The notes under the pieces are model-generated. The model ran no database searches and was not told the DNA's origin. It saw only the letters and a list, made by a program, of their open reading frames with translations. Source: Planctomycetota bacterium (GTDB lineage Bacteria > Planctomycetota > Planctomycetia > Planctomycetales > Planctomycetaceae). From it: a DNA stretch of 64,000 nt. Location: positions 124,001 through 188,000 of the forward strand of contig JAURQH010000021.1 of assembly GCA_030836185.1 (NCBI GenBank), in the 5' to 3' direction. Made by a program: the position numbers and the translations under genes. Below are positions 7,634 to 26,430 of the stretch, piece after piece (within the stretch, counting starts at the first letter, position 1; every line of letters starts with the position of its first letter).

Positions 7634-7731
7634 CACGGTGTTTCGATTTTCGGTTTGCTGACAGGAGAATTGGTTGATTCGGCGGACGGTTCTTATGCAA
7701 TCATTATGCAGGCTGAACACGTGAATTGCTA

Positions 7732-7800
7732 AACGCTGAACGCCGTTTTCAAGATTTGAAGATTTGGAGATTCGGGGACACACCTTGACCGAATCTTGAC
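7732..7800. repeat. Dispersed structured repeat, copy A (GGGGACACACCT loop)
   Basis: The segment shares the order ACGCTGAA, TTTCAAGA, GAGATT and GGGGACACACCT with 26272-26340. Here the conserved GGGGACACACCT sits in the loop of a hairpin whose arms are AGATTCGG (7768-7775) and CCGAATCT (7789-7796). Copy B has a different, longer stem around the same core. The element lies between genes, and its left flank also carries the words AAGATTTG and CAAATCTT as further nested imperfect arms. REP-like or MITE-like elements have this architecture. Confidence 0.6.
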
Positions 7801-8133
7801 CAAATGTTGAATCAAATCTTCCCGAATCTTGATTCCGAATCTTCCATACTCTTGAGCAAGTGGTTGGCACCCATCGGTTTACGCTGATGACCTCGTTTTG
7901 GTGAGTGGTCACTTTTTCGGGGTGCGCATTTTCCACGTCACGCGAGATCGCTTCCTTTCTCACGTTGCAGCGGTCGTCATTGATGAACAATGAATGACAC
8001 TCAAACCTATCCAATGTGCTTGCGCACAATGGCTATGTGTAAGTCGAATTGCCAAAGATCGATTCGCCGTCAGGCGAACCACGAACGCTAACTCTGGTAC
8101 GAATGAAATTGCAAGATGACTTTTGAGAGACCA

Positions 8134-8276
8134 TTTTTTTGACGCAAAGCCTCGAAGAGCAAACAAACGCAAAGGGTTCATTCTCTTGTTGGGTGGCACT
8201 GGCGGCTTGCCCGCCAGTGAGATGGGAGGGAACCAAATTTAATTCACCGCAGAGTTCGCGGAGGACGCGGAGAAAT
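8134..8276. repeat. Low-complexity dispersed intergenic repeat with internal hairpin
   Basis: Two stretches of short, imperfectly repeated words (GACGCAAAG, AACGCAAAGG at 8141-8176; CACCGCAGAG, GCGGAGGACGCGGAG at 8246-8275) flank a hairpin at 8197-8219 with arms CACTGGCGG and CCGCCAGTG and loop CTTGC. Repeats of this wording are common between genes in environmental bacteria and give rise to spurious frames. No T-tract follows the hairpin, so it does not look like an intrinsic terminator. Confidence 0.5.
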
Positions 8277-26255: not shown

Positions 26256-26271
26256 TGCTTGCTACATTCTG

Positions 26272-26340
26272 AACGCTGAAACCTATTTCAAGAGTTCAAG
26301 AGTATGAGATTTGGGGGACACACCTGGTCATACTCTTGAA
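26272..26340. repeat. Dispersed structured repeat, copy B (GGGGACACACCT loop)
   Basis: Here the GGGGACACACCT core lies in the loop of a perfect 13-bp inverted repeat: TTCAAGAGTATGA (26295-26307) and TCATACTCTTGAA (26328-26340), loop 20 bases. The preceding ACGCTGAA and TTTCAAGA words are shared with copy A at 7732-7800 while the stem sequence differs. No T-tract follows, so it is not a standard terminator despite its position between the ExbB-like gene and the convergent sulfatase. Confidence 0.65.
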
Positions 26341-26430
26341 AGGGGTGTTGAGTATTCGGGAATAAGGGGCGTCTCGAAGTTGTGGTCGATTGGTCATTCA
26401 TCCTCAAGCAGAGCTTGAGGCATCTCCCAT

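Follow-up and report, generated by a model that had tools for sequence, protein, structure and literature searches.

A genus-limited family of hairpin repeats behind stop codons in uncultured planctomycetes, and its resemblance to MITE- and REP-like mobile DNA

INTRODUCTION

MITEs and the ERIC, RU and Correia/NEMIS elements of bacteria are non-coding sequences of 100 to 300 bp that lie between genes and fold as long hairpins. Integron attC sites also stand behind stop codons and are marked by GTT/AAC ends and RYYYAAC/GTTRRRY boxes. The repeat family described here, two copies of which (A and B) lie in the 64,000-nt stretch of planctomycete DNA that we analyzed (the window), resembles the former group in its intergenic position, its lack of coding capacity, its size of 100 to 300 bp and its long hairpin folds. 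It differs from that group in a strong bias toward the 3' side of genes, a long one-sided tail and the restriction of paired inverted ends to solo forms.

Closer comparisons can be drawn with repeats that are linked to transposases. According to the available sections of Di Nocera et al. (2013; PMC3733652), TIRYT genes are flanked by terminal repeats that share the motif GGGGWSAS. Like the TIR repeats of these TIRtrons, our family consists of dispersed inverted-repeat units of moderate number, some of them self-complementary, and the word GGGGACAC within its core fits GGGGWSAS (34 exact copies; subfamily 3 has GGGGGGGTG instead). Unlike the TIRtron repeats as set out in those sections, the units bracket no tyrosine transposase gene here (0/23 Y1_Tnp matches), and the motif forms the tip of a hairpin that is followed by a second domain of 115 nt. 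With REP/BIME sequences and their RAYT (TnpA-REP) genes, as presented in the excerpts available of PMC3733652 and PMC6006769, the family shares intergenic palindromes, the presence of Y1 genes and mosaic clusters with other palindromes. REPs have a length of 20 to 40 bp, whereas the hairpin part of our unit is several times longer; in further contrast to REP/BIMEs, it lies mostly in one orientation to the gene, and no cognate RAYT was found. A literature search returned no published account of this repeat.

RESULTS

Copies A and B in the window

The earlier note on this DNA had reported four words in the same order at two sites, and we find them as described: ACGCTGAA (7733 and 26273), TTTCAAGA (7747 and 26286), GAGATT (7767 and 26306) and GGGGACACACCT (7774 and 26314). 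The last of these, the exact core, has no further occurrence in the window. In both copies it is enclosed by an inverted repeat, likewise as reported, of 8 bp in copy A (AGATTCGG, 7768-7775, pairing with CCGAATCT, 7789-7796) and of 13 bp in copy B (TTCAAGAGTATGA, 26295-26307, pairing with TCATACTCTTGAA, 26328-26340). The places were thus right, but the extents had been drawn too short: the head of copy A measures 257 nt (7725-7981) with a tail reaching about 8220, and copy B is a closed palindrome (26266-26363) with a version of the 5' end of the head at each of its ends. The features are as follows.

7725..7981, plus strand: copy A, full head element (hairpin and second domain); profile match 7724-7997, E 7e-89; genome match C104:131732-131981 (window 7732-7981), 89% to consensus
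7731..7865, plus strand: copy A, 5' hairpin region, from outer word AACGCTGAAC to CTTGAGCAAGTGGTT; fold z -2.4
7768..7775, plus strand: copy A, left arm AGATTCGG of the 8-bp stem; from sequence
7774..7785, plus strand: copy A, conserved core GGGGACACACCT, first two G within the stem; exact pattern
7789..7796, plus strand: copy A, right arm CCGAATCT; from sequence
7866..7981, plus strand: copy A, second conserved domain, ending in TTTCTCACGTTGCAGCGGTCGTCATT; 21-nt pattern, 54 places in the genome, control 0
7982..8220, plus strand: copy A, variable tail with pieces common to other copies; copy comparison
8188..8219, plus strand: REP-like palindrome in the tail of copy A; identical to palindromes flanking a RAYT-type gene (L033)
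26266..26363, plus strand: copy B, solo palindromic form; profile match 26265-26339, and a minus-strand match of the head's 5' end at 26365-26332
26295..26307, plus strand: copy B, left arm TTCAAGAGTATGA; from sequence
26314..26325, plus strand: copy B, core GGGGACACACCT; exact pattern
26328..26340, plus strand: copy B, right arm TCATACTCTTGAA; from sequence

The repeat unit and its variants

Alignment of the copies defines a unit composed of a hairpin region of ~140 nt, a conserved second domain of ~115 nt and a variable tail. Its 5' edge is sharp, with ATTCCCGAACACTCAAC in most copies and unrelated flanks upstream; the hairpin region carries the core GGGGACACACC, and the second domain closes with TTTCTCACGTTGCAGCGGTCGTCATT. 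Past this point, over up to about 900 bp, the copies have only pieces in common, in varying combinations, and the tail is built partly of other palindromes. Terminal inverted repeats are present in two solo forms, copy B and locus L177, and absent from the long copies; inspection by eye revealed no target-site duplication at either solo form. At the base of the ~140-nt hairpin unit, where the word AACACTCAAC stands, no GTAG/GTGG foot was recognized when the alignment was inspected by eye.

Some second-domain places carry other cores, belonging either to a GGGGGGGTG subfamily or to older relatives with GAGTATG arms. In the genome from which the window comes (G000), GGGGGGGTG or GGGGGTGTG replaces GGGGACACACC at six loci with an unchanged second domain (L284, L290, L292, L296, L298 and L306). 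The older GAGTATG-armed hairpins, with their different core, are found just upstream of younger heads (L225, about 1900-2000; L296). At L012:66-373 the arm units are expanded into several repeats of GTCAAGAT and GGAGATTC, a sequence pattern that points to probable slippage within hairpin arms.

Copy number and distribution

Many genomic copies, more than five, had been predicted from the two in the window, and the prediction holds. The exact core occurs 34 times in G000 (5.16 Mb, 107 contigs), 48 times in a second genome, G052, and not at all in G051, a third member of the genus; the reversed control gave 0 in G000. One of the 34, L014, is a chance occurrence inside a long reading frame and lies outside the family. 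A 21-nt pattern from the second domain, allowed two mismatches and recovering 72/78 known copies, finds 54 places in G000, 57 in G052 and none in G051, with a control of 0 in all three. The 257-nt consensus matches at least 42 times in G000, from 40 scored of 83 candidates, and a head at C82:35.5 kb comes in addition to these.

Among the 170 genomes of the order that were searched, only G000 and G052 contain full heads, and these two share a genus. G051 has two short degenerate hairpins and no full head, and the other 167 genomes have none. G052 is identical, over the stretches compared, to the Planctomycetaceae MAG cluster2_bin.62 (JAQWSQ01). Occurrences of GGGGACACACCT in G118, G126 and other genomes do not belong to this element: that in G118 is an 18-bp array resembling coding repeats, and the others examined lie in different sequence. 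No match was found among viral contigs (exact 21-mer), among plasmids and phages (copy A head) or, for nine loci, in Rfam up to an E value of 1.

Position relative to genes

In 60 of the 83 copies for which enough flank and frame was available (out of 86 with a 5' end), the nearest upstream frame is co-directional and ends ahead of the head, the gap being most commonly 50 bp or less; in the other 23 it runs the opposite way. Neighbors were assigned here by the longest open frame and not by a gene caller. The bias is seen in both genomes (27/38, binomial P = 0.014; 33/45, P = 0.0025) and in the pooled copies (P = 6e-5, with shared sites counted twice). Copy A belongs to the minority, lying between divergent genes for Exo_endo_phos (minus strand) and DUF1349 proteins, and copy B lies between convergent genes for a MotA/ExbB-type protein and a sulfatase (Pfam). 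A few heads follow an apparent intrinsic terminator (L286 and L306, by eye), and many are too near the stop codon for one; at copy B no terminator-like site was found, and at copy A there was 1 against 0.9 expected.

Folding and the origin of differing arms

The hairpin region folds better than its dinucleotide shuffles, with a mean z of -2.2 over 86 copies, 55% of which fall below -2. For covariation we aligned the 54 of these 86 copies that have the same length and arm class, having excluded by hand L181, L183, L225 and L231, which belong to another arm class; the 28 others differ in length. RNAalifold returned -10.18 for this main class, with a covariation term of only -0.21. The 22-pair structure was paired in 93.4% of cells against 93.3% in shuffles, and 1 of the 22 pairs had changed on both sides, a figure reached by 273 of 500 shuffles. 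The earlier note had held that copies lacking compensatory changes would speak against a structured element, and in the main class, which comprises most copies, such changes are absent. Its observation of a conserved loop between different but pairing arms survives at another level, namely across subfamilies, while within the main class there is no compensatory change beyond that of shuffles. The innermost stems of the classes differ and yet pair (GTCAAGATTCGG/CCGAATCTTGAC, TTCAAGAGTATGA/TCATACTCTTGAA and TTCAAGATTTGAAGAT/ATTTCCGAATCTTGAA), as does that of G051 (AAGATTCGGGGA/TTTCCGGATCTT). For the second domain, RNAalifold gave neither a consensus fold nor covariation on the sense strand; on the other strand it gave one hairpin of -7.1, against -0.2 (SD, 0.6) in shuffled columns.

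The sequence CATAC[TC]CTTG is found in the right half of 46/86 copies, and its complement in the left arm of only two, copy B and L178. The stem of copy B looks as if a unit that many copies already carry had been copied there in reverse complement: given this distribution, a single templated copy across the hairpin would suffice, and no selection need be invoked. Template switching can both create and mend stems, as argued in the available part of PMC8794818, and we infer that it may have acted at this repeat.

Transposases and REP palindromes

The Y1_Tnp domain (PF01797) has 6 matches in G000, 7 in G052 and 10 in G051. None of these 23, across the three genomes of the genus, is bracketed by 5' ends of heads at distances of up to about 1.5 kb, so that the direct link to a Y1/RAYT gene proposed earlier finds no counterpart here. 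Three matches in G052 have a head on one side: a short frame of 105 aa within the tail of a head (C60), a gene embedded in a head's 5' end (C140) and a gene more than 1 kb from one (C204). The association of GGGGACA-type cores with such enzymes has a real basis, in that TIRYT-flanking repeats share GGGGWSAS in the available sections of PMC3733652; this is resemblance and not membership, and we regard the fit of the core as a possible lead, by analogy, to the kind of enzyme and not as proof.

Other palindromes do bracket Y1 genes. At L033 a Y1/RAYT-type gene is enclosed, in inverted orientation, by the palindrome GGTGGCACTGGCGGCTTGCCCGCCAGTG (L033:1115-1146 and 1867-1895), and the palindrome at window positions 8188-8219 is 100% identical to these over 32 and 29 nt. 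Because the bracketing palindromes differ from the head, the RAYT-linked REPs belong to the tails and not to the head. The tails of heads contain further members of the GGTGGCACTGGCGGCTTGCCCGCCAGTG family, and the whole resembles a REPtron with its scattered REPs; a second family, CCGCACGCTGGCGCGTTGCGGCTGAT, stands on both sides of the Y1 gene at L034 (1125-1157 and 1862-1893) and likewise recurs in tails. No integron integrase scored above the cutoff; seven matches fell below it, as did matches in 14/14 controls.

Homogenization and presence/absence

At 21 of 41 element loci in G000, the upstream flank matches that of a G052 element locus (by eye). Mean identity is 0.793 within G000, 0.787 within G052 and 0.753 between the two, among 20 site-matched pairs there is one in which the G052 partner is also the closest G052 copy, and the tree of copies splits mostly by species, with exceptions. 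Since copies are closer to others of their own species than to their site-matched partners, the likeness within species is, as judged from these comparisons, one of concerted evolution or replacement.

At L002 a head present in G000 is absent from the orthologous interval of G052, both flanking genes of which match. The spacer has diverged on both sides, and neither a clean empty site nor a target duplication was seen. Since most shared copies are old, the case for movement is drawn from the distribution. At the L002 position, G052 carries an insert of roughly 2 kb with a long membrane-protein-like frame, presumably acyltransferase-like (L246, G052:C85:9500-14700).

Gene order and assembly breaks

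Both genomes are drafts in which misjoins at repeats are possible, and only eight shared sites had some downstream sequence in both species. Among these eight, downstream order is kept at one (L020/L220), broken at five (L009, L013, L021, L224 and L226) and could not be compared at two with too little sequence (L223 and L229). At three of the five broken sites, the G000 downstream flank stands behind a different G052 head (L184, L201 and L209). Copy B marks a further break: the gene on its left maps to G052 contig C8 and that on its right to C183, and both have a head of their own next to them. A 19.9-kb head-free part of the window, the single control stretch, is colinear with one G052 contig. 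An origin of L013 by simple inversion between two G052 heads on C156 was considered and rejected, as G000 contig C40 matches only 2.2 kb past the head.

Of 39 heads on contigs of known length, 15 have the downstream contig end, and 2 the upstream one, no more than 350 bp away; G000 contigs that end in this way include C15, C24, C32, C39, C54, C77, C80, C91, C98, C100, C103 and C106. The repeat family is likely a main cause of the fragmentation of this assembly. This clustering of contig ends at heads also implies that assemblers struggled there and that some joins may be wrong.

DISCUSSION

We give a probability of roughly 55% to the reading that copies A and B are members of a MITE/REP-like family of mobile DNA repeats that is limited to one genus and non-autonomous, passive and mobilized in trans. 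Copies would have spread as DNA and persisted mainly behind stop codons, where little harm is done. They may have been moved by a transposase that acts on the hairpin in trans, most likely, by analogy, one of the single-strand HUH/Y1 type, with a DDE transposase as a possible alternative. Copies would then have exchanged sequence by recombination, and their arms may have stayed complementary largely through hairpin-templated copying (template switching) and not through selection on an RNA fold, while other palindromic repeats settled into the degenerate tail. Several points count against this reading: no transposase with head ends was found in a search that covered the Y1 and integron-integrase families, neither an empty site free of divergence nor a target duplication was observed, and the better-than-shuffled folding of the hairpin would also be explained by an RNA or DNA structure.

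The folding, the position and orientation behind stop codons and the arms that still pair in several types would all be expected of a structured RNA in 3' untranslated regions, whose hairpin would protect or terminate transcripts and be maintained by RNA-level selection. We consider this unlikely, given that covariation in 54 copies does not exceed that of shuffles, that the second domain has no sense-strand consensus fold, that nine loci have no Rfam match up to an E value of 1 and that 23 of the 83 copies do not follow a co-directional gene; the terminator counts (none at copy B, 1 versus 0.9 expected at copy A) argue in the same direction. There is no sign of the head being an RNA machine, and neither the RNA reading nor a direct RAYT reading is supported. 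Mobilization as a classical REP family, by a RAYT encoded in the genome, would agree with the six Y1_Tnp matches in G000 and with the other tail palindromes that flank RAYT genes on both sides, but it is very improbable in view of the 0/23 matches bracketed by the head and of the foot, GTAG/GTGG, that was not recognized by eye; the one-sided neighbors in G052 are the 105-aa frame in a tail, the gene in a 5' end and the gene more than 1 kb away.

Were the solo palindromes (copy B and L177) the intact unit, the family might be a miniature inverted-repeat element of a DDE transposase, and their inverted ends do match the 5' end of the head. The right inverted end is, however, missing from the long copies, inspection by eye showed no target duplication at either solo form, and the flanks examined revealed no autonomous partner, which makes this quite improbable. 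Scarcely credible is a kinship with attC-like integron recombination sites, for although ACTCAAC and, in L177, GTTGAGT fit the expected RYYYAAC/GTTRRRY boxes, the right box is not kept in long copies (by eye), no integron integrase passed the cutoff and the copies are dispersed and form no arrays.

In conclusion, the passive mobile DNA repeat remains our preferred reading, and the family itself is real and of a known general kind, with its 3'-side bias, its homogenization and its gene-order breaks as the unusual traits. The breaks raise the distinctly doubtful prospect that heads are preferred joints of rearrangement, at which a family fixed behind stop codons would swap partners, each gene with its head being rejoined to a new downstream neighborhood, and the genome would be reordered at the ends of genes with no integrase involved. 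If this were true, it would offer a simple system in which to watch genomes recombine at gene ends. The stems of the hairpin also carry a caution, in that differing arms that pair need not mean selection for structure. For the uncultured planctomycetes concerned, the finding provides a clear and countable repeat family, and one that explains where these assemblies break.
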